Positions 27,235-62,045 of a DNA stretch of 64,000 nt are shown here, one piece after another. How positions within the stretch are numbered: position 1 is the first letter of the stretch; each line of letters opens with the position of its first letter. The position numbers and the translations under genes were made by a program. Origin of the DNA: Halarchaeum rubridurum (GTDB taxonomy: Archaea > Halobacteriota > Halobacteria > Halobacteriales > Halobacteriaceae); contig NZ_BMOO01000003.1 in assembly GCF_014647115.1 (NCBI RefSeq), positions 62,001 through 126,000 of the forward strand, written 5' to 3'. The notes under the pieces are model-generated. The model was given only the letters and a program-made list of their open reading frames with translations, did not search any database and was not told where the DNA came from.

Positions 27235-27651
27235 TTACGCCGTCACTTCGTCGAGCACGTCGCGCACGCGCGCCTCGATCTCGTCGCGTATCGCGGCGAC
27301 GGCTGCGGGGTCCCGGCCGTCCGGGTCGTCGAGGTCCCAATCGCGGTTCTCGCCCGCCCACCCCGCGGGGCAGACGTCGTCGGCCGAACAGCCCATCGTG
27401 ACCACGTAGTCGGCGCGCTGGACCTCCTCGAACGTCACCTCGCGCGGTTCGCGCCCGGTGAGGTCGATGTCGACCGCGCGCATCGCCTCGACGACCTCCG
27501 CGTGGACGTGTTCGGCGGGGTCGGTGCCGCCCGTGACGATCTCGATCTCGTCGTCGAGGCCGCGTGCGGCGACCTCGCGCTCGGCGAACGTGGTCGCCAT
27601 CTGCGAGCGGCCCGCGTTCTGCACGCAGACGAAGGCGAGGGTGGTCGTCAT
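27235..27651 (-). CDS. arsC: Arsenate reductase, low-molecular-weight phosphatase type
   Basis: A 138-residue protein. The P-loop is VCVQNAGRSQMA (residues 7-18) with nucleophile Cys9 and Arg15 in a Cx5R motif, and a later pair of cysteines (MGCSADDVCPAG) that can form the redox relay of thioredoxin-coupled ArsC. It reduces arsenate to arsenite for export by the Acr3 gene in the same operon. Start ATG 27651 overlaps the micro-ORF stop by ATGA. Confidence 0.9.
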   Translation of the reverse strand: MTTTLAFVCVQNAGRSQMATTFAEREVAARGLDDEIEIVTGGTDPAEHVHAEVVEAMRAVDIDLTGREPREVTFEEVQRADYVVTMGCSADDVCPAGWAGENRDWDLDDPDGRDPAAVAAIRDEIEARVRDVLDEVTA

Positions 27652-27746
27652 CGGACCATCATCCCGTTCACGGTGTCGGCTGTCGTGGTGGCTGTCGCGT
27701 GCGGTGCGGTGGTTCCTGTGGTCTCGGTCGTGGCTGTGTGGGGCAT
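27648..27746 (-). CDS. Possible 32-aa Thr/His-rich micro-protein in ars operon
   Basis: A frame from the ATG at 27746 encodes MPHTATTETTG to NGMMVR, 32 residues, 13 of them threonine. It fills the only gap in the ars operon, begins 5 bp after the Acr3 stop, and its stop overlaps the arsC start by ATGA, strong signs of translational coupling. It may be a real peptide or a ribosome-delivery leader for arsC. No family recognised. Confidence 0.5.
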   Translation of the reverse strand: MPHTATTETTGTTAPHATATTTADTVNGMMVR

Positions 27747-27751
27747 GGGTG

Positions 27752-28807
27752 TCAGTCGTCGGTGGGCGTGAAGGCGGTGCCGGTCGGGGCGTCGTCGAAC
27801 AGCGAGTCCTTGGTGGCGAGCGCGACGCGGACGAGCGCGAGCATCACGGGGACCTCGATGAGCGGGCCGACGACGGTGGCGAGCGCGACGTCGCTCCCGA
27901 TGCCGAAGACGGCGACGGCGACGGCGATGGCGAGCTCGAAGTTGTTGGAGGCGGCGGTGAACGCGAGGCTGACGCCCTCCGTGTAGTCGAAGCCGACCGC
28001 GGCGCTGACGCCGTAGGCGACCACCCAGAGCGCGACGAAGAAGACGAAGAGCGGGACGGCGATGCGAACGATACGGAGGGGGTCGGCGACGATGACGTCG
28101 CCCTTCAGCGCGAACATGACGACGACGGTGAAGAGCAACCCGAGGAGGCCGAGCGGGCCGATGCGCGGGATGAAGCGGCCGTAGTAGGCCTCGCGGCCGA
28201 CGGTGCGGAAGGCGACGCGCTGGGTGAGGTAGCCGAGGACGAGCGGGAGGCCGAGGAAGACGCCGACCATCTGCGCGACGAGGGCCATCGAGACGTCGAC
28301 GGCGGTCCCGCGGAGGACGGTGAGGAAGAAGAACGCGTAGGGGACGAAGAGGGCGATCTGCAACAGGCTGTTGACGCCGACGCAGACCGCGCATAGCTCC
28401 TGGTTGCCGGCGGCGAGCTCGTTCCAGACGAGCACCATGGCGATGCAGGGCGCGATGCCGACGATGATGAGGCCGGTGACGAGGTCGGGATATCCACCGA
28501 GGAAGAGGACGGCGAGGCCGTACATGAGCGCGGGCGCGACGAGCCAGTTGAACGCGAGCGTGAGACCGATCTCGGCTCGATTGGTGCGGGTGACGCGCGG
28601 GATGCGGTCGTACTCTATCTCGGCCATGATGGGGAAGATCATCACGAAGAGCCCGACGGCGATGGGGAGGCTAGTGCCGTGCCACGTGACGGCGTTCAGG
28701 ACGTCGACGACGCCGGGCGCGAAGCGTCCGAGCGCGACGCCACAGAGCATGGCGAGGCCGATCCAGACGGTGAGGTAGCGGTCGAGGACGCCGAGGGAGT
28801 CGCTCAC
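27752..28807 (-). CDS. ACR3-family arsenite efflux transporter
   Basis: A 351-residue membrane protein from the GTG at 28807, which overlaps the arsR stop by 4 bp (GTGA). Ten hydrophobic segments are visible. The ACR3 core is APCIAMVLVWNELAAGNQELCAV (near residue 105-127), including the conserved cysteine in helix 4, and SNNFELAIAVAVAVFG near residue 275. It exports arsenite by proton antiport. A longer in-frame extension upstream is within arsR and not used. Confidence 0.93.
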   Translation of the reverse strand: MSDSLGVLDRYLTVWIGLAMLCGVALGRFAPGVVDVLNAVTWHGTSLPIAVGLFVMIFPIMAEIEYDRIPRVTRTNRAEIGLTLAFNWLVAPALMYGLAVLFLGGYPDLVTGLIIVGIAPCIAMVLVWNELAAGNQELCAVCVGVNSLLQIALFVPYAFFFLTVLRGTAVDVSMALVAQMVGVFLGLPLVLGYLTQRVAFRTVGREAYYGRFIPRIGPLGLLGLLFTVVVMFALKGDVIVADPLRIVRIAVPLFVFFVALWVVAYGVSAAVGFDYTEGVSLAFTAASNNFELAIAVAVAVFGIGSDVALATVVGPLIEVPVMLALVRVALATKDSLFDDAPTGTAFTPTDD

Positions 28808-29205
28808 TCGGCGGCCCCCGTCTCGTCCTCGCTTTCCGCGGCGGCGAACAGCCCGTTCGCGAGCGCGGTGCTCTCGTAGTAGCGCCAGTTGCCGTCCTTG
28901 CGTCGGTCGACGAGGCCGGCGTCGACGAGGTCGGCGAGCGCGTGGCTGACGGCGCTCTCGCTGACGTCGACGAGGGCTTCGAGCTCGCAGACGCAGCGCT
29001 CGGTCCCGTCGACGGCGAGCGCGCGGGCGAGCCGATACCGCGTCTCGTTCCCGAGGACGGCGAACGGCGCGCGGGTGTCGTCGTCCGCGAACGCCTCGTC
29101 CGCGAGCGCGTCGAGTTCGGCCCGTCGCGCCGTCACGTCGGCGTCGCAGCAGTCGCCGAGCTCGTCCGCGAGGAGTCGCTCCAGTCGTGTCGCTGACTCT
29201 GCCAT
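28804..29205 (-). CDS. arsR: ArsR-family metalloregulator
   Basis: A 133-residue protein from the ATG at 29205 (a GTG sits just before). A winged helix spans about residues 45-115, with the metal-sensing CVCEL (ERCVCELEALV) at the start of helix alpha-3, a form of the ELCVCDL arsenic motif. A CC pair near residue 20 (DCCDADV) could be a third ligand. It should repress its own operon and release on arsenite. Palindromes upstream at 29212-29235 and 29245-29262 are its likely operators. Confidence 0.92.
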   Translation of the reverse strand: MAESATRLERLLADELGDCCDADVTARRAELDALADEAFADDDTRAPFAVLGNETRYRLARALAVDGTERCVCELEALVDVSESAVSHALADLVDAGLVDRRKDGNWRYYESTALANGLFAAAESEDETGAAE

Positions 29206-29211
29206 CACCAG

Positions 29212-29423: not shown

Positions 29424-29888
29424 ATGCCTGCCGAAGACGTCGACGCGGTCGACCGGGAGATTCTGTACGCGCTCCAGGAGGACGCGCGGAACCTCTCGTC
29501 GAGCGACATCGCCGAACGAACCGGGACGTCGGGGAGCACGGTCAGAAAGCGCATCCGGCGCTTGGAGGAGGCGGGCGTCGTCAAGGGGTACAGCGCCGAG
29601 GTGGACTACGAGCGTTCGGGCTACCCGATACGGATGCTCCTCTTCTGTACGGCGTCCATCCACGAGCGCGGCGACCTCATCCCCGACGTGTTGGCCCTCG
29701 ACGGCGTCGTCTCCGTCCAGGAGCTCATCACGGGCGAGGAGAACCTGCTCGTGACCGCCGTCGGGCGCTCGGACAGCGACATCACGCCCGTCGCGGAGGA
29801 ACTCCTCGACATGGGCATCACCGTCTCCGACGAGGTACTCGTCAAGAGCCACGTCACGACGCCGTTTGGTCGCTTCGAGGAGGAGTGA
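29424..29888 (+). CDS. Lrp/AsnC-family transcriptional regulator
   Basis: A 154-residue protein. An N-terminal HTH (VDREILYALQEDARNLSSSDIAERTGTSGSTVRKRIRRLEEAGVV, residues 7-51) is followed by a RAM-type ligand/oligomerisation domain (about residues 65-145) in an Lrp-like arrangement. It is immediately upstream of dabB, on the same strand, with three CGAACA-type sites in the gap. It is therefore a candidate local regulator of inorganic carbon uptake; the ligand is unknown. Confidence 0.88.
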   Translation: MPAEDVDAVDREILYALQEDARNLSSSDIAERTGTSGSTVRKRIRRLEEAGVVKGYSAEVDYERSGYPIRMLLFCTASIHERGDLIPDVLALDGVVSVQELITGEENLLVTAVGRSDSDITPVAEELLDMGITVSDEVLVKSHVTTPFGRFEEE

Positions 29889-29904
29889 CCGACGAGTCGT
29901 TCAC

Positions 29905-29969
29905 GAACAATAACACAGTCTATCGAACAATCTGGGAACAGACGAAGGTTTTATTGCCCAATCTGTTCG
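29905..29969. promoter_or_regulatory. CGAACA repeats before dabB
   Basis: Direct copies CGAACAATAAC (29905-29915) and CGAACAATCTG (29925-29935), 20 bp apart, plus an inverted copy CCAATCTGTTCG (29958-29969). A TTTTATTG box at 29949-29956 sits between copies two and three. The spacing fits an Lrp-type oligomer on two helical turns. Confidence 0.5.
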
Positions 29970-29984
29970 TACTGTGGGGTAGGT

Positions 29985-30011
29985 GTGACCGGGGACGTTC
30001 CCCCGCGTCAC
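29985..30011 (+). promoter_or_regulatory. Hairpin in the dabB leader
   Basis: GTGAC with CGGGGA pairs with TCCCCCG and GTCAC around a 3-nt loop, a 27-nt stem-loop with minor bulges, ending 12 bp before the dabB ATG. If the box at 29949 drives transcription, about 40 nt of leader contain this hairpin, which could control translation. Confidence 0.4.
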
Positions 30012-30023
30012 GATACGCACACG

Positions 30024-31514
30024 ATGTCGGACACACACCCCACCCGGACGGTCGGCGCACTCCCCGACGCGACGTCGGAAACGCCCCGCGCTCCCGTGTG
30101 GCTCACCCGACTCGTCTGGACGCTGTGGGCCGCGAGCGTCGGTCTCCTCGGCGCGCACGCGTTCACCGGCGCGACGTGGGGCGTCCCCGGTGTCGTCGCG
30201 TTCGACGGCCTGAGCGCCGTCATGTGGGTCGCCGTCACGTTCTTCAGCGGCATCGTGCACAGCTACTCGCGGCGCTACATGGCCGGCAGCGAGCGCATCA
30301 CCGCGTTCTTCGTGCGCATCTTCGCCTTCACGCTCGTCGTGCTGGCGCTCGTCGCCGCCGCGAACACCGCGCTCTTCACTCTCGCGTGGCTCGCCATGGG
30401 CCTCCTCATGGCCGACCTCGTCGGCTACGCCGAGGGGTGGCCCCAGGCGCAGACCGCCGCCTCCCTCTCCCGCAAGTACTTCCTCGCCAGTAGCGCGCTC
30501 GTCGGCGTCGCCGCCGCGACCCTCTGGGCGACCACGGGCGCGTCCACCTTCGCGGGCGTCGCCGCCGTCGCCGACACCCTCTCCCCGACCGTCTGGCTCG
30601 TCGTCGCCGCGAGCCTGCTCCTCGCCGCGATGATCCAGTCCGCCCTCGTCCCCTTCCAGGGCTGGCTCCTCTCCTCGATGACCGCGCCGACGCCCGCCTC
30701 CGCGCTCATGCACGCCGGCTTCGTCAACGCCGGCGGCATCCTCCTCGTCCGCTTCGCCCCCGTCGTCACCGCCGAGGCGGGCTTCATGCTCCTCATCGTC
30801 GCCGTCGGTGCCGCGAGCGCGCTCCTCGGCAAACTCCTCCGCACCGTGCAGACGGACGTCAAGGGCCGCCTCGGCTGCTCGACGACCGGCCAGATGAGCT
30901 TCATGCTCATGCAGGCCGGCCTCGGCTTCTTCGCCGCCGCCATCACCCACCTCATCCTCCACGGCTTCTACAAGGCCTACGAGTTCCTCTCGAACGGCAG
31001 CGGTGTCTCGCGCACGGCGCCCGGCGAGGGGCACGGCGCGACGCCGTCGCTCACCGCCGTGGGCGCGCTCGCCACCGGCGTCACCGCCGTCGCGGGCGGC
31101 GTCCTCTTCGCCGTCCTCACCGGCGAGGGCCTCCACGCCGACAGCGGCCTCCTCCTCGCCGGCCTCGTCGTGCTGACGACGCTCCACGCCGCCCGGCAGG
31201 CCATCGGGCGCGCCGGCGTCTCGCCCGCCGTCCGCTACGGCGCGGTCGCGCTCGTCTTCCTCCCCGCCATCGCCGTCTACGGGCTCGTCTACGGCGCCAT
31301 CGAGGGGCTGCTGGCCGGGTCGGTGATCGCCGCCGCCCCCACCGACCTCACCGCCGTTCACGTCGCCGTCGCGGCCGCGTTCGCCGCCGTCTACCTCGCC
31401 ATCGAGACCGGCGTCTATCGCCGCAGCACGCGGCTCTACGTCGCGCTTCGCACCGCCGGCCGGCCGGACGGTCGCACCGTCCTGACGAACACGGAGGCCT
31501 ACGATGAGTACTGA
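30024..31514 (+). CDS. dabB: DabB: inorganic carbon transporter membrane subunit
   Basis: A 496-residue protein from the ATG at 30024, with about twelve hydrophobic segments and a proton-translocating NuoL/MrpA fold. The ALMHAGFVNAGGIL helix (near residue 230) and the Lys/Glu-bearing helices (LLGKLLRTVQTDVKGRLGCST) are conserved. DabB pairs with DabA to concentrate inorganic carbon, probably bicarbonate, driven by the cation gradient. It overlaps dabA by 11 bp. The Lrp-like gene upstream is probably part of the regulation. Confidence 0.88.
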   Translation: MSDTHPTRTVGALPDATSETPRAPVWLTRLVWTLWAASVGLLGAHAFTGATWGVPGVVAFDGLSAVMWVAVTFFSGIVHSYSRRYMAGSERITAFFVRIFAFTLVVLALVAAANTALFTLAWLAMGLLMADLVGYAEGWPQAQTAASLSRKYFLASSALVGVAAATLWATTGASTFAGVAAVADTLSPTVWLVVAASLLLAAMIQSALVPFQGWLLSSMTAPTPASALMHAGFVNAGGILLVRFAPVVTAEAGFMLLIVAVGAASALLGKLLRTVQTDVKGRLGCSTTGQMSFMLMQAGLGFFAAAITHLILHGFYKAYEFLSNGSGVSRTAPGEGHGATPSLTAVGALATGVTAVAGGVLFAVLTGEGLHADSGLLLAGLVVLTTLHAARQAIGRAGVSPAVRYGAVALVFLPAIAVYGLVYGAIEGLLAGSVIAAAPTDLTAVHVAVAAAFAAVYLAIETGVYRRSTRLYVALRTAGRPDGRTVLTNTEAYDEY

Positions 31515-34014
31515 GACACACACCGACACCGACATCGACGACAGCTCCGACGTCCGCGAGCGCATCGCCGCCGCCGCCGAGACGGTCGGCACGAACTGGC
31601 CGGTCCACTCCTTCGTGACCGCGAACCCCCTCTCGGGCTACGAGGACCGGCCCTTCCACGAGGCCGTCGAGCGCGCGAGCATCCTGCGGGGCGGCCGGGC
31701 CTACCCCGACCCCGAGACGTTCCGCGCCGCGTGGGAGCGCGGCGACGTCGACCCCGACCGCCTCCGCGCCGAACTTGACGCCCACGGCTACGAGTGCGAC
31801 CCCGAGGCGGCCCTCGAACTGCTCGCCGAGGCCGGCGACGATACCCGCGCCGTCCGCGACGACGCGACGGCGCGCGTCGATCGCGTCCTCGCGTCGTGGC
31901 TCGCGGCCTTCTGCGACGAGGGCGAGGCGTCGTGGCCGATGCCGAACCGCGAGGCGGGCTTCTACGACGCCTTCCGTGCCGTCGCGCGCCACGACTCGGC
32001 GATCCCCGATGCGGCCTCGCTCGCCGACGCGCCCGACGACCCCGCGGCCGCCGTCCGCGACGCCCTCGCCGACCGCCCGCGCGAGCGCTGGACCGCGATT
32101 TTCGAGGCGCACCTGAACGCCCTCCCCGGCTGGACCGGCCTCCTCACGTACCGCGCCGAGCGGGGCGACGAGTGGCAGGACGCCTATCCGGTCACGCTCG
32201 TCGGCTACCTCGCCGCGCGCCTCCTCCTCGTCGAGCGCTTCGACGCACCGCTCGACCCGCTTGCGGACGCGGACGGCGAGGAGACTGACACCGCGGGCGA
32301 CGCGTCCGGTGCCGACGACGCCGACGTCCCCATCGAGGAACCGTGGCTCCGCGCGTGGGAGGCGTCCTACCGCGGCGAAGTCGTGGACGCCGTCGCGGAC
32401 GCGAGCGCGGCGCGCCACGCGAGCGACGCGGACGACGACGGGCGCGCGGACGCCCAGCTCGTCTTCTGCATCGACACGCGCTCGGAGGTCTTCCGCCGCC
32501 ACCTCGAAGCCACGGGCGACTACGAGACGCACGGCTACGCAGGCTTCTTCGGCGTCCCGATGCGCTATCAGGGCTACGACGACGAGGCGAGCGCGGCCGC
32601 CTGCCCGCCCATCGTCGACGCCGAACACCACGTCCGCGAGCGCCCGGACGACGAGCGCGCCGACGAGCGCGCTGCCTACGACCGCTGGACGGGCCGCCTC
32701 CACGCGGGCGAGAAGGTCCTGAAGGCCGTGAAGTCGAACGCCGCGACCGCGTTCAGCTTCGTCGAGAGCGCCGGGAGCGCCTACGGCGCGGCGCTCGCCG
32801 CGCGCACGCTCGTCCCCGAGCGCGTCCACGACCTCGCCGACGCCTTCGACGCGCGCTTCCCGAGCGTCCCGGACTTCTGCGCGCCGAGCGTCGAACACGA
32901 CGGCGCGCACGAACACGGCCTCCCCGTCGGCATGACCCACGAGGAGCGCGTCGCGTACGCCGGCGCGGCCTTCGAGACGATGGGGTGGGACGACTTCGCG
33001 CGCCTCGTCGTCTTCACGGGTCACGCGAGCGAGACGGCGAACAACCCCTTCGAGGCGAGCCTCGATTGTGGCGCGTGCGCCGGCAACCCCGGCGGCCCGA
33101 ACGCGCGCGTGCTCGCCGCGATCTGCAACGACGACGCCGTCCGCGACGCGCTCCGCGAGCGTGGCCACGAGATTCCCGACGACACCGTCTTCCTCGCCGC
33201 CGAGCACAACACGACGACGGACGAGGTGACGCTCTACGACGGCGACGTCCCCGAGAGCCACGAACGCGACGTCGAGCGCCTCCGCGCGGACCTCGACCGC
33301 GCGCGCTCCGGCGCGGCCGCCGAACGCGCCGAGTCCATGGGCGGCGACCCCGACCCCGCGGACGCCGTCCGCGACGCCGAGCGCCGCGCCGCCGACTGGG
33401 CCGAGACCCGCCCCGAGTGGGGGCTCGCCGGCAACGCCTCGTTCGTCGTCGGTCCGCGCGACCTCACCGCCGATCTCGACCTCGACGGGCGCGCGTTCCT
33501 CCACTCCTACGACTGGCAGCGCGACGACGAGGGCGACGCGCTCGACGCGATATTCGCCGGTCCCGTCATCGTCACCCAGTGGATCAACGCCCAGTACTAC
33601 TGCGCGACCGTCGACAACGCCGCCTACGGCAGCGGCTCGAAGGTCACGCACAACCCCGTCGGGAACGTCGGCGTCTACCAGGGCAACGGCGGCGACCTCG
33701 CGGCCGGCCTCCCCCTCCAGTCGCTCATGGCCGCCGACGACGACCCCCACCACCAGCCCCTGCGCCTCTCCGTCGTCGTCCACGCCCCCGTCGAACGCGT
33801 CCGTGACGTCCTCGCCGACCACGAGGGCGTCCGCACGCTCTGCGAGAACGGCTGGCTCTCGCTCACCGTCGTCGACCCGACGCGCGGCCACGACGCCTAC
33901 GCCTACGAGGGCGGCTTCGCAATCGGCGACGCGGCGGAACGCGAGACAGCGTCCGAGACGGAAGCCGAAGCCGAGACGGAACCCGAGGCGACCGTCGCCG
34001 TCGCCGACGACTAA
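31504..34014 (+). CDS. dabA: DabA: inorganic carbon transporter soluble subunit (DUF2309)
   Basis: An 836-residue protein. The zinc site seen in bacterial DabA is conserved: FCIDTRSEV with Cys322 and Asp324, and FTGHASETANNPFEASLDCGAC with His507 and Cys522, the same H-x14-C spacing reported for DabA. Zinc and Asp form a beta-carbonic-anhydrase-like site. Two acidic insertions (residues about 255-280 and 300-315) and an acidic tail fit a halophile. It overlaps dabB by 11 bp and its stop (TAA) overlaps the stop of the convergent gene. Confidence 0.92.
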   Translation: MSTETHTDTDIDDSSDVRERIAAAAETVGTNWPVHSFVTANPLSGYEDRPFHEAVERASILRGGRAYPDPETFRAAWERGDVDPDRLRAELDAHGYECDPEAALELLAEAGDDTRAVRDDATARVDRVLASWLAAFCDEGEASWPMPNREAGFYDAFRAVARHDSAIPDAASLADAPDDPAAAVRDALADRPRERWTAIFEAHLNALPGWTGLLTYRAERGDEWQDAYPVTLVGYLAARLLLVERFDAPLDPLADADGEETDTAGDASGADDADVPIEEPWLRAWEASYRGEVVDAVADASAARHASDADDDGRADAQLVFCIDTRSEVFRRHLEATGDYETHGYAGFFGVPMRYQGYDDEASAAACPPIVDAEHHVRERPDDERADERAAYDRWTGRLHAGEKVLKAVKSNAATAFSFVESAGSAYGAALAARTLVPERVHDLADAFDARFPSVPDFCAPSVEHDGAHEHGLPVGMTHEERVAYAGAAFETMGWDDFARLVVFTGHASETANNPFEASLDCGACAGNPGGPNARVLAAICNDDAVRDALRERGHEIPDDTVFLAAEHNTTTDEVTLYDGDVPESHERDVERLRADLDRARSGAAAERAESMGGDPDPADAVRDAERRAADWAETRPEWGLAGNASFVVGPRDLTADLDLDGRAFLHSYDWQRDDEGDALDAIFAGPVIVTQWINAQYYCATVDNAAYGSGSKVTHNPVGNVGVYQGNGGDLAAGLPLQSLMAADDDPHHQPLRLSVVVHAPVERVRDVLADHEGVRTLCENGWLSLTVVDPTRGHDAYAYEGGFAIGDAAERETASETEAEAETEPEATVAVADD

Positions 34015-37000
34015 TCCCCCAGGAGCCCCGCGAGCGACGCGAACCACGACCCGACCGGCCCGTCCGGCGGCGTCGCCCGCCGCACCGTCGGGTCGACGCC
34101 GAGGCGCGTCACCGTCGCCGACACCGACCCCCCCACCTGTCGTTCGAGCAGCCACGCGTACGTCGCCGCCTGCAGGTCGTAGCGCCGCCGCGTCTCCCCG
34201 TCAGAGGGCGCGAGTGCGACCTTCAGGTCGTCGACGCGCCACGTCCCGTCCGGGGCGCGCGAGACGACGTCCGCGACGTTCTGCATCTCGACGGCCACCG
34301 CGCGCTCGCTGACGCGGACGACCGCGTCCACCGACTCCTCGACGAACACCGACTCGCTCTCGCGCAGGCGCGCCCACGTCTCGCTCGCCGCGAACTGCGG
34401 ACACACCCGCTCGGCGACGAACGCCCGGACGGCCGCGCGCTCCGCGTCGCCCGCGCCGCGACCGGCGAGCGCCTCGTCGAGCCGTCTGCGTAGCGGGCCC
34501 GCGCACTCCGCCAAGACCGTCGTCTCGACGCCGAGCGAGACGGCGCGCGTGAGCACCGCGTGTGCAACGGTGCCGACCGCGTCCGGGCCGAGCGCGTCGA
34601 ACGGGAGGCCGAGTTCGTCGGGCGGCGCCGCCCGCGCCGTGTGGAGGGCGGTCCGCTGGAGGTGCGCGAGCACGTGCTTCTCGGGGTCGCTCACGAGCGG
34701 GTAGAGCGTGCTCGCGTTGACGTGCCGCGGGGTCCACCCGGTCTTCGCGCGCGGGGTGGGCGTCGCCGCGGCCGGCGTCGGTGGCGGCGCCCGCGACGGG
34801 ACGCGGTCGACGAGCGGGACGTCGTTGACGCCGACCGCGAACGTCCGCTCCGGGTCGTCGGGACGCGGCGACGCCACGGTGTGCGTCCCGCCGCGCGTCG
34901 CGCGCTCCACCTCGAACGCGTCGGCGAGCGCGTCCGCCCAGTTCTCCCGCGGTCGGCGGCGCGCGGGGTCGCGGTCGCCGGGGAGCGGGACGACGAGGTG
35001 GTCGCGGGCGCGCGTCATGGCGACGTAGAGGACCCGCCAGCGCTCCGCGCGCTGCGCGCCCGCGGCGGCGGCCAGCGGCGGCGGCCCGGCGAGTCGGGCC
35101 TCCCCGGGGACCCACCGCTCGCTCGCCCACCGCAGGCCCGCGTCGCGGCGCGTGTCGTCCGGGTCGTCCCCCGCGGGATCGCGCGACGGGTGCGCGTAGA
35201 CGCCGGCGTCGAAGCCGGCGAGCGGCGGGGCGTCGTCGCCCGCGTCCGCCGGCGGCGCGAGCGCGAGGTGCTCGCCGCGCGCGACGAACGCGTCGCCGTG
35301 TGGCCCGTGGAAGCCCAGCCACGCCCCGAGGTCCGCGAGCGCGACGACGTCGGCCTCGTCGCCCTTCATGCCGTGGACGGTGCGGAAGACGACGTCGTGG
35401 GATTCGGTATCGGGGACGGGGACCTCCGGGCCGCCGCCGGGGGACGCGAGGAAGCGCCCGAGCGCGGCCGCGAGGTCGTCGAGGGTGCCGTCCTCGCCCG
35501 CCCACTCCGCCGCGCCGTCGCGGAGCGCGTCGAGCGCCGCCACGCGCCGCGACGGGTCGTCCCCCGCGAGGTCGAGGGGGTCGGCCGCGAGGTCGAGCGT
35601 ATCGAGCACGTCGTCGACGGTGGCGACGGGTGCACCGACGTGGCGCGCGCGCCGCCCCGCGAGCGCCGCGAGCGCGTCGAGGACGCGCTCCAGAGGGTCG
35701 TCGAGCCCCGATTCGTCCCCTGACGCGGCCGCGCGGACCGACCAGTCGGCGTCGGCGACGGCGTCGCGGAGCGCCGTCGGGAGCGTCGTGCCGTCGCCGT
35801 CGAGGTCGGCGTCGAGGAGCGCGCGCGTCCGCGCCGTATCCGACGGGTCGACGAGCCACCGGGCGACCGCCGCGGCGAGACGAACGAGCAGCCGGGCGAA
35901 GAGTCGCTCGCTCGCGTCCGCGACCGCGAACCCCCGCGCCGTCAGCGCCTCGGCGAACGTCCCCATCCGCGTCCGCCGCGGGAAGAGGACGGTCACGCTC
36001 GGGCGCTCGTCGCCGTCGTCGCCGTCGTTTTCGTCGTCGAACGTCCCACCCGCGAACGCGCCCGCCAGGTAGCTGGCGAGCGCGCGCGCCTCCTTCGCCG
36101 CCCAGTCGCGCGACCCCGGGGACGCGCTCGCGCCGTGCGCGGCGACGTGGACGCTCGGCTCGGCCGTCGCCTCGCGGTCCGCGACGAGGTGCGGGTAGTC
36201 GACGCCGACGGCGCCCCCGCCGGCGCGCGCGGGGTCGGCGAAGGCGTCGGCGAACACGGCGTCCACGGCCGCCGCGACGTCCGGCCGCGAGCGGTAGGTG
36301 CGCGCGGCACGCTCGCGGACGTGCACGTCCCAATCGACGCCGAAGTAGTCGCCGTCGGCGGCGGCGCGCGCGAAGCGCTCCGGGCTGGCGTTCCGCCACG
36401 TGTAGATGCACTGCTTGCGGTCGCCGACGAGCAGGACGCGCGTGTCGCTATCCACGAACGGCGCGAGCGCGTCGTGCTGGACGACGGAGACGTCCTGCGC
36501 CTCGTCCACGATCACCGTGTCGAGGCGGGCCGTGTACCGCTCGCGGACGTGCGCGCGGTAATCGCTCGCGTACCGCTCCGCCTCGAAGTACGCCGCAGTC
36601 CAGTGAGCGACGTCGAGGTGCGTGAGGAGCCCGCGCTCGCGCGTCAGCGCGTCGTACGCCTCTTCGTAGGCCGCGAGGAACGTCTGAAGGTCGTCGACGG
36701 CGTCGCGCCACGACTCGTGACACGCCCGGTCCGCCGCGACGAACGCCGCGCGCGCGTCGGCGTCGAAGCCCGCCGCCGTCTCGTCGGCCGTCCGCCGGTC
36801 CACGAAGCGTTCGACGTCGCGCAGGACGTCCGCGAAGTCCTCGGGCGCCCCCTCGGGATACGCGCCGTCGACGGCGTCGCGGAGGCGGTCCGCGAAGGCG
36901 TCGACGGAGAGGCGGCGCTGGCGGGCGGCCCGGAGCATCGCCGGGAGGAGGTCGTCGAGCCCCGCGGTGTGCTCCCCGCCCGGATAGGCGGCCTCGAGGC

Positions 37001-37517
37001 GCTCGACGCGCGCCGCGTGCTCGGGGTCGTCGCGGAGGGCGTCGAGGCAGTCCGATTCGAGCGCCGCGAGCCGCGTCGCGTCGCCGACCGTCGGCACGCC
37101 GTCGAACCCAACTTCGTGGGCGACGTCCGCGAAGACCGTGTGCAACACGCTGTCGACCGTGCCGAGCGTGTCGCTCCGCCGGAGGCGACGGGCGAGGTCG
37201 CTCGCGTCCTCGGCGTCGATGCCGACGTCCTCGCGCGCGGCGAGCGAGTCGAGCGCGGCCGCGACGCCGGGCCCGACCGCCGCGGCGTCGTCGCGCGCGA
37301 ACGAGGTGACGCAGAGGCCGCGCTCGGGCGCGCGCTCCCCCGCCGCGCGGCCCCGGGCGAGTACCGCGGCGGCGAGCCGGTCCGCGACCGTCGACTTCCC
37401 CGCCCCGGGGTTGCAGTCGAGGACGAACAGCCCGGCGTCGTGCGCGAGGAAGGCGTCGCGGAGGCGACGCTGTGCGCCCCGGAGCTCGGGGACCTCGTCC
37501 ACCCCTGACGCGGTCAT
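34011..37517 (-). CDS. UvrD-like helicase with C-terminal nuclease (AddA-like)
   Basis: A 1168-residue protein from the ATG at 37517. The SF1 helicase core begins with Walker A CNPGAGKST (residues 35-43), continues with the VIVDEAQDVS Walker B near 335, then motif III/IV RKQCIYTWRNA, and helicase domain 2 to about residue 790 (motif VI VLYVAMTRARDHL). A C-terminal PD-(D/E)XK-like nuclease reads MQNVADVV...VDDLKV...YDLQAATYAWLLE near 1100-1140. It resembles bacterial AddA. The partner gene upstream overlaps by ATGA, so they form a two-protein complex for double-strand break resection, by analogy. Confidence 0.85.
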   Translation of the reverse strand: MTASGVDEVPELRGAQRRLRDAFLAHDAGLFVLDCNPGAGKSTVADRLAAAVLARGRAAGERAPERGLCVTSFARDDAAAVGPGVAAALDSLAAREDVGIDAEDASDLARRLRRSDTLGTVDSVLHTVFADVAHEVGFDGVPTVGDATRLAALESDCLDALRDDPEHAARVERLEAAYPGGEHTAGLDDLLPAMLRAARQRRLSVDAFADRLRDAVDGAYPEGAPEDFADVLRDVERFVDRRTADETAAGFDADARAAFVAADRACHESWRDAVDDLQTFLAAYEEAYDALTRERGLLTHLDVAHWTAAYFEAERYASDYRAHVRERYTARLDTVIVDEAQDVSVVQHDALAPFVDSDTRVLLVGDRKQCIYTWRNASPERFARAAADGDYFGVDWDVHVRERAARTYRSRPDVAAAVDAVFADAFADPARAGGGAVGVDYPHLVADREATAEPSVHVAAHGASASPGSRDWAAKEARALASYLAGAFAGGTFDDENDGDDGDERPSVTVLFPRRTRMGTFAEALTARGFAVADASERLFARLLVRLAAAVARWLVDPSDTARTRALLDADLDGDGTTLPTALRDAVADADWSVRAAASGDESGLDDPLERVLDALAALAGRRARHVGAPVATVDDVLDTLDLAADPLDLAGDDPSRRVAALDALRDGAAEWAGEDGTLDDLAAALGRFLASPGGGPEVPVPDTESHDVVFRTVHGMKGDEADVVALADLGAWLGFHGPHGDAFVARGEHLALAPPADAGDDAPPLAGFDAGVYAHPSRDPAGDDPDDTRRDAGLRWASERWVPGEARLAGPPPLAAAAGAQRAERWRVLYVAMTRARDHLVVPLPGDRDPARRRPRENWADALADAFEVERATRGGTHTVASPRPDDPERTFAVGVNDVPLVDRVPSRAPPPTPAAATPTPRAKTGWTPRHVNASTLYPLVSDPEKHVLAHLQRTALHTARAAPPDELGLPFDALGPDAVGTVAHAVLTRAVSLGVETTVLAECAGPLRRRLDEALAGRGAGDAERAAVRAFVAERVCPQFAASETWARLRESESVFVEESVDAVVRVSERAVAVEMQNVADVVSRAPDGTWRVDDLKVALAPSDGETRRRYDLQAATYAWLLERQVGGSVSATVTRLGVDPTVRRATPPDGPVGSWFASLAGLLGD

Positions 37518-39643
37518 CGCTCGCCCTCCGCACTCCCGCCGAGCACGTCCGCGAGCGCGTCCGGCACGCGACGGTCGGCCGCGAGCAGCGCCGCGAGGTC
37601 GTCCCCCTCGATAGTCGGCGCGTCGGGCGCGACCGCGTCGAGGAACGGCGACCGGTGTGCGGTGACCCCGCCCGCGTCCGTCGTGAAGCGCGTGCAGACG
37701 AGCCCCGCGCTCGCCGCGCCGACGGCGTCCGCGAGGTGGTCGCGCTCCCGGGCCTCCGTCCACGCTCCCCGAACCCCGAGCGCCGCGCCGCCGCGGGGGC
37801 CGCCGTCGCCCGCCACGACCGCGTCGCGGAACGCCGGCGGGAACGCGCCCCGCGGTCGCTCGGGCCACTCGCCGTCGACGAACCCCACCGCGACGACGTA
37901 CGGCATCGAGCGCAGCCACGCGTCCGTCGCGTCCAAGACGTCGATCCGCTCCGCGTTGTCGTGCTCGCGTCGCCCCGGTCGGGTCGTCACGACCGCGTCG
38001 AGGACGTCCGCCACGGCCTCCCACGACGCCTCGACGTGCCCGCGCTCGCGCCAGTCGCCGTACTTCGCGGGGGCCTCGTCGAGCAGTTTGCGCGAGCGCG
38101 AGAGCGCCCGCGCGTTCCGCGACGTCGCACCCAGACCGGGGCCGTCGGCGTCGAGCACGGCCGGGAGGACGACGCGCTCGTGCGCGTCGAGCAACGGTCG
38201 GAGCGTCGCCTCGACGTCCGCGGGCCGCGGCGTACTCGCGTGCGTCTCGACCCACGCGAGCAGCCGCCTGACGCCGGCGCGCGCCACCGCCTCGCCGTCG
38301 CCGCCCGGCTCGAACGCGTCGAGTCGCCGCCGCCACGCCTCGACGGTGCCCGCCTCGTCCGCGAGCGCGCGGCGCACCGCCGCGACGTCGCCGTGGTCCA
38401 GCGGCCAGACGCCGCCCGGGTCGGCGTCCGGCGGCACCCACTCGGCGTCGAACGGCGCGAACAGCGCCGCCGGCGCGATGTCGCCAGCCGTTCCGCGCTC
38501 GCCATCATCCCCGTTCTCGGCGGCGGCGAGGAGCGTCGCGCACGCATCGAGCACCCGGTACGGCCGCGTCTCCCCGACCGCGAGCTGCGTCCAGACGGAG
38601 AGGTGACGACCGTACTCCCCCGCCGCCCGCGTCAGGGCGCGCTCGTAGCGGTCCACGTCCCGGGCGACGACCGCGACGTCGGCGAGCGCGACGCCGCGTT
38701 CGAGGAGCGCGTCCACGGCCGCCATCGCCGCGCGCGCCTCCTCGCGGCGCGTTGGCGCGACGATCTCGGCGACGGGAACGTCCGGCTCCAGTCTACCAGT
38801 GGTCGTCTCCGCGACGGTCACGTCCGCGGCGTCGACGGCCGGCCCCGCCGTGAGCCGGGACGCGAGCCGCTCCGCGACCCGCGGGCCCGTCCCCGCGCGC
38901 AAGAAGAGTCGAACGTCGGTGTCGGTGTGCGCCGCGACGGCGCCGAGGAGGTCGAGGAGCGGGCTCCCGACCGTGCTCACGCCCGCGAGCGAGACGCGCT
39001 CGATGCCGGAATACGCGTCCGTCCACGCCGCCCCGTCGCTCCGCGTGACCGCCTCACGCGCCGCGTGCAGCGCCGCCGCCGTCGAGACGGCCCGACTCGC
39101 CCGTTCGGCGAGCGCCGCGTCGATTCCGTCGAGTCCGTCCAGCAACGCCCGCGTCTCGCGCGCCGCCGTCGGCGGGAGCGCGTCGGCGACGGCCTCCAGC
39201 GCGTCGCGTCGCGCGCTCGTCCCGCCCGCCACGGTCGTCAGCTCCTCGCGCGCGGCCTCGACCCGCTCGACGTGGGCGGCGAGCTCCCCGCCGAAGATCG
39301 TCCGGAGCGGGTCGCTCGCCACGCTCTCGTCGTCGAGAACCCGTTCGAGGAGTCGGAGGCGGTCCGCGCGGTCGAGCGCGCCCCGGTCGGCCGCGCGCGG
39401 CGCGACGGCGCCCGCCACGTCGCCCGGCGAGACGAGGCGGAGCGAACTCCGCGGTCGCGACCGCTCGGCGAGCGCGCGCTTCAGGTTGCGTCGGTGGAGG
39501 CGTTCGGGCGTGAGAACGAGGTCCGTCGCGCCCGCGCGTCGCGTCGCCCGGTCGAGGAGTTCTTCGGGCTCCCCGACGTGGACGGTCAGCGACGCCGTGC
39601 GGTCGTCGCGGGACCCCGGAAACCCCGAGTCGGCGTCCGTCAT
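37514..39643 (-). CDS. AddB/RecC-like partner protein (709 aa)
   Basis: A 709-residue protein. The overall pattern is a helicase-like fold without clear Walker motifs: a beta-rich N-terminus (VGEPEELLDRATRR), motif-like VAEIVAPTRREEARAAMAAVDALL near 280, and the RecC/AddB-type VAVGFVDGEWPERPRG near 610. It overlaps the AddA-like gene by ATGA. It probably scaffolds the helicase-nuclease; a nuclease domain is not obvious. Identity is supported mainly by its gene pairing. Confidence 0.65.
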   Translation of the reverse strand: MTDADSGFPGSRDDRTASLTVHVGEPEELLDRATRRAGATDLVLTPERLHRRNLKRALAERSRPRSSLRLVSPGDVAGAVAPRAADRGALDRADRLRLLERVLDDESVASDPLRTIFGGELAAHVERVEAAREELTTVAGGTSARRDALEAVADALPPTAARETRALLDGLDGIDAALAERASRAVSTAAALHAAREAVTRSDGAAWTDAYSGIERVSLAGVSTVGSPLLDLLGAVAAHTDTDVRLFLRAGTGPRVAERLASRLTAGPAVDAADVTVAETTTGRLEPDVPVAEIVAPTRREEARAAMAAVDALLERGVALADVAVVARDVDRYERALTRAAGEYGRHLSVWTQLAVGETRPYRVLDACATLLAAAENGDDGERGTAGDIAPAALFAPFDAEWVPPDADPGGVWPLDHGDVAAVRRALADEAGTVEAWRRRLDAFEPGGDGEAVARAGVRRLLAWVETHASTPRPADVEATLRPLLDAHERVVLPAVLDADGPGLGATSRNARALSRSRKLLDEAPAKYGDWRERGHVEASWEAVADVLDAVVTTRPGRREHDNAERIDVLDATDAWLRSMPYVVAVGFVDGEWPERPRGAFPPAFRDAVVAGDGGPRGGAALGVRGAWTEARERDHLADAVGAASAGLVCTRFTTDAGGVTAHRSPFLDAVAPDAPTIEGDDLAALLAADRRVPDALADVLGGSAEGER

Positions 39644-61946: not shown

Positions 61947-62045
61947 CCCACGCGCGCTCGGCCGCTCCTCCCCGGTCCTCGCTCGTTCGCCCTTCCTCCG
62001 CGCTCGTCCGGTAGGTGTTTGTCCGGGCGCGCCCCACCTCGGCGT

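Follow-up and report, generated by a model that had tools for sequence, protein, structure and literature searches.

A probable Lrp/AsnC-type regulator of the predicted inorganic-carbon operon dabBA in Halobacteria

Introduction

Archaeal Lrp proteins bind as dimers to imperfect inverted repeats of 13–17 bp placed two or three helical turns apart, often form higher oligomers and commonly regulate their own genes (excerpt of PMC2995911). The DAB/DAC systems (DabAB, MpsAB), for their part, carry out energy-coupled CO2 hydration or bicarbonate transport. Here we analyse a locus that unites the two, in a 64-kb stretch of Halarchaeum rubridurum DNA (the whole stretch analysed, hereafter the window; positions 62001–126000 of its contig in a 2.8-Mb assembly, class Halobacteria). 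In it, a gene of the Lrp/AsnC family, lrp (29424–29888), precedes the operon dabBA, which is predicted from its sequence to encode an inorganic-carbon accumulation system. We consider lrp likely to be a single-purpose regulator of inorganic-carbon supply, one that would act through a phased operator at the dabB promoter.

The system shares with the archaeal FFRP regulators Ss-LrpB, Ptr2, LysM and FL11 (PMC2995911, in excerpt) an N-terminal helix-turn-helix (HTH), a RAM-type order of elements and helically phased, imperfect inverted repeats of 15 bp. It differs from them in its target, a predicted CO2/bicarbonate transporter, in having as many as four sites distributed on both sides of the TATA box, and in the single operon per genome found with a strict sequence pattern. 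The haloarchaeal Lrp proteins represented by NF041396, NF041395 and PDB 8q90 (titled a halophilic Lrp) belong to the same family, and 8q90 is among both the sequence and the structure matches; the window Lrp, however, falls far under the NCBIfam equivalog cut-offs (45.9 of 190 bits for NF041396, Lrp, and 50.2 of 250 bits for NF041395, LrpA1) and is a member of neither. An Lrp/AsnC protein has been pulled down with the nasABC promoter of Hfx. mediterranei (excerpt of PMC8143581), whereas the window Lrp is linked to dab and not to nitrogen genes.

With the DAB/DAC systems the locus has in common the DabA and DabB families, the active-site residues and adjacent, overlapping genes; what sets the haloarchaeal version apart is the dedicated Lrp beside it, a link surveyed here in Halobacteria, with bacteria outside the search. 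Since dabAB has been assigned in Haloferax volcanii (HVO_2410/2411; excerpt of PMC8305020), DAB in a haloarchaeon is not itself new. The consulted parts of the open-access literature yielded no regulator of an archaeal DAB and no Lrp–DAB link, although this does not prove that none exists. Each gene is of a type already known; the control circuit appears undescribed.

The lrp–dabB–dabA locus

Three genes, all in the same direction, make up the locus.

29424–29888, plus strand: lrp, Lrp/AsnC-family regulator of 154 amino acids, probably dedicated to dab (HTH_24/HTH_AsnC; RAM-like element order; orthologue in 124 of 125 dabA genomes)
30024–31514, plus strand: dabB, predicted membrane subunit of the inorganic-carbon transporter (PF00361, PF00662)
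31504–34014, plus strand: dabA, predicted cytoplasmic subunit resembling beta-carbonic anhydrase (beta-CA), with residues C322, D324, R326, H507 and C522 (PF10070, 868.6 bits; PDB 9rd0, E 2.7e-104)

The start of dabB is the ATG at 30024, an alternative GTG at 29985 falling within the leader. An earlier note on this DNA had claimed that dabB and dabA overlap by 11 bp and that DabA keeps its zinc-site residues with the published spacing, and both statements hold. The overlap spans 31504–31514. DabB belongs to its family by its matches to Proton_antipo_M/N (PF00361, 9e-30; PF00662), the NADH:quinone oxidoreductase/Mrp antiporter family, and by its position adjacent to and overlapping dabA. DabA, encoded by the only dabA copy in the window's genome, is a member by its Pfam PF10070 match at 868.6 bits together with the zinc ligands C, H and C and the Asp-Arg dyad. 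The five residues listed above align to C351, D353, R355, H524 and C539 of DabA2 (PDB 9rd0, E 2.7e-104), whose roles are described in PMC13144422 (in excerpt), and the distance from H to C is 15 in both proteins. Among the 127 dab loci introduced below (the window's included), the first C, the D and the R are kept in all 127, and the H and second C in 126, the remaining one being unreadable.

The Lrp carries an N-terminal winged HTH of the AsnC type (Pfam PF13412, 8.3e-16; PF13404, 4.4e-13). Its C-terminal half is covered by profile matches to solved Lrp/AsnC proteins (8q90, 6–137; 7fby, 3–115), and a predicted model of moderate confidence (pLDDT 63) has the HTH plus beta-alpha-beta-beta-alpha-beta, the RAM-type order. 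Foldseek searches with this model returned Lrp/AsnC structures with E-values to 8.2e-09, 8q90 among them, but with TM scores of about 0.4–0.5 and root-mean-square deviations above 10. On these profile matches and this model, the C-terminal half can be assigned to a RAM domain.

Conservation and co-inheritance of lrp and dab

dabA is present in 125 of 194 Halobacteria genomes; elsewhere in the phylum, DabA was found in 18 of 196 genomes, all 18 from the window's order. We fetched 127 dabA loci, one per genome and two for G049 and G179; where dabA was split between contigs, in G025, only the promoter-bearing half was taken. By tblastn, 123 of these loci have an lrp orthologue upstream of dab in the same orientation; less than 700 bp separate lrp from dabB in 86 of them and more than 700 bp in 37. 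Among the loci without it, L108 (G037) has its lrp more than 50 kb away, L156 (G021) lies at a contig start, and L142 lies at a contig end, with lrp, operator and dabB start on another contig, L160.

The second dabA of G179, in L153, is divergent, at 50% identity. There dabB follows dabA, a search for lrp nearby found none and no operator is clearly recognisable; the locus may represent another type of DAB. Of the 37 loci with the longer distance (L067, L125 and L155 are examples), 32 have a conserved opposite-strand gene, about 338 amino acids in length, in the space separating lrp from dabB.

A second set, of named relatives, comprised the best 80 of 181 found by lrp similarity alone, its species overlapping those of the 127-locus set. 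dabB lies downstream in the same direction in all 80 named lrp loci kept (42 and 38), and the closest named lrp orthologues among these best 80 of 181 are those of Halarchaeum nitratireducens (93%) and H. acidiphilum (88%). Conservation of the gene neighbour thus holds for 123 of the 127 dab loci and for all 80 of the named ones. The earlier note would have given up its proposal had the neighbour or the repeats not been conserved across species; this was examined, and the proposal survived, with the neighbour in 123 of 127 loci and the operator described below in 122 of 126.

The association extends to gene content. In a whole-genome search with the Lrp protein, orthologues are set at about 66% identity or more and at least 209.5 bits, with a gap to the next match in the E-value list (158.8 bits, 52% identity). 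By this definition lrp is found in 124 of 125 dabA genomes versus 1 of 69 others (Fisher 2e-50, relatedness ignored), the sole dabA genome without it being G021, where the dab contig begins shortly upstream. Fourteen genera hold genomes both with and without dab, and lrp tracks dabA in all 14 (tables read by hand).

A phased operator around the TATA box

The only occurrences of CGAACAAT on either strand of the 64-kb window are those starting at 29904 and 29924, and TGTTCG is found at 29964–29969. Three or more copies of CGAACA/TGTTCG in the 135-bp intergenic region arose in 1 of 20,000 single-base shuffles. The features of this region are as follows, with counts from the aligned promoters.

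29904–29918, plus strand: upstream half-site (first CGAACAAT), a direct repeat and local variant of site U, 20 bp before M; 92 of 122 promoters have GTTC at −20 or −21
29924–29938, plus strand: operator site M, CGAACAATCTGGGAA; consensus CGAAC-N5-G, in some loci the palindrome CGAAC-N5-GTTCG; GAAC in 118 of 122 promoters
29949–29955, plus strand: likely TATA box, TTTTATT; consensus TTTAATA/TATAATA; alignment columns 25–31
29955–29969, minus strand: operator site D, the M motif reversed (GTTCG end); GTTC at +40 in 117 of 122 promoters; correlation with reversed M 0.749
29985–30000, plus strand: weaker fourth site E, in the leader, 60–61 bp from M; profile correlation 0.466 at +61
29985–30011, plus strand: possible leader hairpin GTGAC...GTCAC before dabB, with weak to moderate support

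The 115 sites that seeded the operator profile were selected with a pattern in which GAAC, a TATA-like box and TTC were obligatory; 126 loci were scanned, L142 being too short. The promoter block scores above 15 with the ungapped profile in 122 of them. When whole loci were scanned, the best site lay 20–400 bp upstream of dabB in 122 of 122, and 22 shuffled loci never scored above −46.8. The conserved columns are GAAC at +1, the TATA box at 25–31 and GTTC at +40, with the U region around −20; columns −40 to −32 of the operator alignment carry at most 0.14 bits.

Site D repeats M in reverse: both have GAAC and then G six bases on. We compared the M profile with all 212 15-bp windows of the block on both strands (mean correlation 0.079, standard deviation 0.174). 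After itself, its best matches were +30(−) at 0.749, 0(−) at 0.743, +30(+) at 0.536, −30(−) at 0.535, −31(−) at 0.469 and +61(+) at 0.466; the seventh, +18(+) at 0.403, is off the period, and was followed by +60(+), −30(+), +61(−) and −31(+). With matches at −31/−30, 0, +30 and +61, the sites thus recur every 30–31 bp, about three helical turns, a spacing consistent with dimers or octamers and with sequence-specific binding.

The window promoter has an extra base between M and TATA relative to the profile. With one spacer base dropped it scores 41.6, and the same operation gives 30.6 for H. nitratireducens, 45.2 for H. acidiphilum and 56.9 for L154, while ten shuffles of each stay at or below −44.5. 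At position 29904 the window has only CGAA in common with H. nitratireducens and H. acidiphilum (by eye). The CGAACA repeats that the earlier note placed around the TATA box are real, and the copy at 29924 belongs to a widely conserved operator, whereas the copy at 29904 is local. The functional core is the inverted pair around the TATA box, not the upstream direct repeat.

The operator is restricted to dabB and, in some genomes, to beta-CA genes. A strict composite pattern (at most two mismatches) matched 114 places in 113 of 194 genomes, and a reversed-pattern control matched none. Of these sites, 112 lie less than 450 bp upstream of dabB, 111 in fetched loci and one in L160, which amounts to one operon per genome; G049, with two dab loci, has two sites. 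The two matches away from dab, in G141 and G166, have two mismatches each, occur in genomes without dabA and score −11.2 and −39.7 with the full profile; they are taken for chance. The strict pattern is present in 73 of the 80 named loci, and would miss diverged copies such as the beta-CA type described below. In G037, where lrp has moved more than 50 kb away, the dabB operator is kept, with a score of 68.0.

In the 200 bp upstream of lrp itself, the best site scores average 1.8 in 122 loci, against 0.6 for shuffles and 16.6 for true sites; scores of 12–14 are found in six loci of one genus (g23) and in L062 and L050. With scores so near those of shuffles, general autoregulation of lrp was rejected.

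Taken together, linkage, co-inheritance and operator give strong comparative support to the control of dab by Lrp that the earlier note proposed, and from them we infer that the Lrp binds these sites.

Carbonic anhydrase genes at dab loci

A beta-CA gene lies in the fetched flanks of 44 of the 127 dab loci. Seven of these genes stand between lrp and dabB on the same strand and have an operator-like site 179–275 bp upstream of the matched coding start. Their sites score 12.0, −7.1, −9.9, −21.4, −27.2, −35.6 and −40.1, against best-of-20-shuffle values of −35.9, −51.4, −36.8, −45.6, −51.0, −45.7 and −50.0, respectively. These copies are diverged, five being clear and two (L051 and L145) weak; L051 and L145, inspected by eye, show a CGAAC-N5-GTTCG box as well as a pair of GAAC boxes with 30-bp spacing. 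The remaining 37 beta-CA genes score −49.9 or lower, near background, three of them topping their own shuffles (L110 by 2.9, L035 by 10.0 and L056 by 3.6 bits).

Class-wide, a pattern of the beta-CA type matched 9 sites in 9 of 194 genomes, 8 inside lrp–dab loci by coordinates and 1 elsewhere (G033). It recovers four of the seven genomes (G021, G049, G063 and G125) and misses G028, G066 and G172. Arrays resembling the beta-CA operator, with 2–3 mismatches, were also seen in G106, G036, G069 and G122, between lrp and dabB and upstream of the main dabB operator.

For bacteria, DAB and beta-CA are described as interchangeable and as seldom found together (excerpt of PMC8552792). Our carbonic anhydrase search covered the beta class only, gamma and alpha lying outside it, so that 'no beta-CA' does not mean 'no carbonic anhydrase'. 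Of the 194 genomes, 174 gave a beta-CA match; dabA is present in 18 of the remaining 20 (Fisher p 0.012), the genomes lacking both being G184 (93% complete) and G129. The window's genome gave no beta-CA match. The carbon-supply role suggested in the earlier note gains support from the beta-CA genes flanking 44 of 127 loci, from the seven with an operator copy (two of them weak) and from the 18 of 20 beta-CA-less genomes with dabA.

A regulator without dabA

G129 (L159:3513–9061) has no dabA or beta-CA match and keeps an lrp orthologue (66%). Its lrp lies downstream of a major facilitator superfamily (MFS) transporter gene (NarK-like, below cut-off) and a Usp gene, and an operator-like site 123 bp before the MFS gene scores 29.8, the next best on that strand scoring −30.2. 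The MFS–Usp–lrp cluster adjoins CO-dehydrogenase and ParA-like genes, with CO-dehydrogenase on the other side of the operator-like site.

At a threshold of 1e-60, 22 of 194 genomes, counting G129, have a relative of this MFS protein; dabA is present in 14 of them and absent from 8, and on that distribution the protein was rejected as a general dab partner. That it carries bicarbonate, as a candidate new carbon transporter, is a guess. It is conceivable, if short of probable, that Halobacteria have a true inorganic-carbon regulon under one Lrp that senses carbon status, which would comprise dabBA nearly always, beta-CA sometimes and, in G129, the NarK-like MFS protein as a new importer of bicarbonate or another one-carbon anion.

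Neighbouring genes

Upstream of lrp, the minus strand (27235–29208) carries an ArsR-type HTH gene (28804–29208) and a low-molecular-weight phosphatase-like gene (27235–27651), which suggests an arsenic operon. At the other end, the stop of dabA shares 4 bp (34011–34014) with the end of a long open reading frame on the opposite strand, 34011–38441.

Discussion

In the mechanism that we favour, Lrp dimers would bind sites of 15 bp whose motif, GAAC-N5-G, forms a palindrome at its best. Recurring every 30–31 bp, these sites would all face the same side of the helix, with U upstream, M immediately ahead of the TATA box, D between that box and the expected start site, and E in the leader. Four dimers, joined as an octamer, would have some 105 bp of promoter wrapped around them, and the promoter would most likely be shut while CO2/bicarbonate, or else a product of carboxylation, is abundant. 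It would be opened by an effector that alters the assembly, possibly leaving dimers on U and M that aid transcription start, whereupon DabB and DabA would hydrate CO2 and keep bicarbonate inside the cell. Repression by wrapping fits because the sites lie on both sides of the TATA box, while the position of M before the box would also allow activation; we rank first repression, with possible activation by partial occupancy.

Several observations weigh against this interpretation or temper it. The sites themselves do not reveal whether control is positive or negative. Genomes are related, so the counts are not independent events, and the conservation of the GAAC, TATA and TTC columns is partly built in by the seed pattern, which required them. 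Site U varies, and E is weak, its role being uncertain because it overlaps the possible leader hairpin. Four scanned loci score below 15: L153 (−41.3), which lacks lrp and has no clear site, L140 (−20.2), the window itself (−0.1, ungapped) and L154 (11.0). The window's genome and 13 other dabA genomes, 14 in all, have no strict match. At beta-CA, L051 and L145 beat their shuffles by about 10 bits only, no more than L035 outside the group, and 107 of 125 dabA genomes also carry beta-CA, unlike the infrequent pairing described for bacteria. Most lrp genes have no upstream site of their own, though autoregulation is common in the family, and the Pfam RAM family is absent among the Lrp matches at 1e-3.

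The same regulator and operator might work mainly by activation, with U/M dimers recruiting TBP/TFB and D/E only tuning the response; we regard this as a serious alternative, though not the one to be expected. Ptr2 and LysM act in such a mode. In the aligned promoters, some 10 bp separate the end of M from the TATA box, and M keeps GAAC in 118 of 122. Yet D varies about as little as M, with GTTC in 117 of 122 promoters, and it lies between the TATA box and the expected start site, where binding should block initiation. A more radical proposal, that the block is a promoter for a different factor, either an unlinked regulator or a specialised TFB/TBP pair, and lrp a passive neighbour, could draw on the inclusion of the TATA box in the conserved block, on the distance of more than 50 kb between lrp and the operon in G037 and on the indirect, sequence-based case for Lrp binding. 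It is improbable, however, given that lrp tracks dabA across 194 genomes, that the spacing and palindrome fit Lrp-family sites and that G129 keeps lrp and an operator-like site without dabA.

We give still less credence, indeed very little, to the conserved leader acting as RNA, as a hairpin or riboswitch-like element that would exert the main control and leave the repeats secondary. An arm at +58 to +70 does pair downstream in 115 of 124 leaders, against 73.5 expected, and the Halorubrum group reaches a folding z of −5.1. The mean folding z is only −0.77, however, and the other three genus groups lie between −0.3 and −1.6; pairs with double-sided changes number 1, 4, 4 and 0 in the four groups, and most of the conserved columns are upstream of the expected start site. 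With so weak a mean z and so few double-sided changes, the leader was not convincing as the main control and was set aside.

How non-autotrophs sense and meet their need for CO2 or bicarbonate is, to our knowledge, poorly understood. The locus presents one small, class-wide regulator with an apparently single target and a crisp operator, and a clean case of an Lrp-type operator phased around a TATA box. Because the operator is crisp and dabAB is present in Haloferax volcanii (excerpt of PMC8305020), the question is directly testable in that organism. The case of G129, in turn, points to a candidate new carbon transporter.

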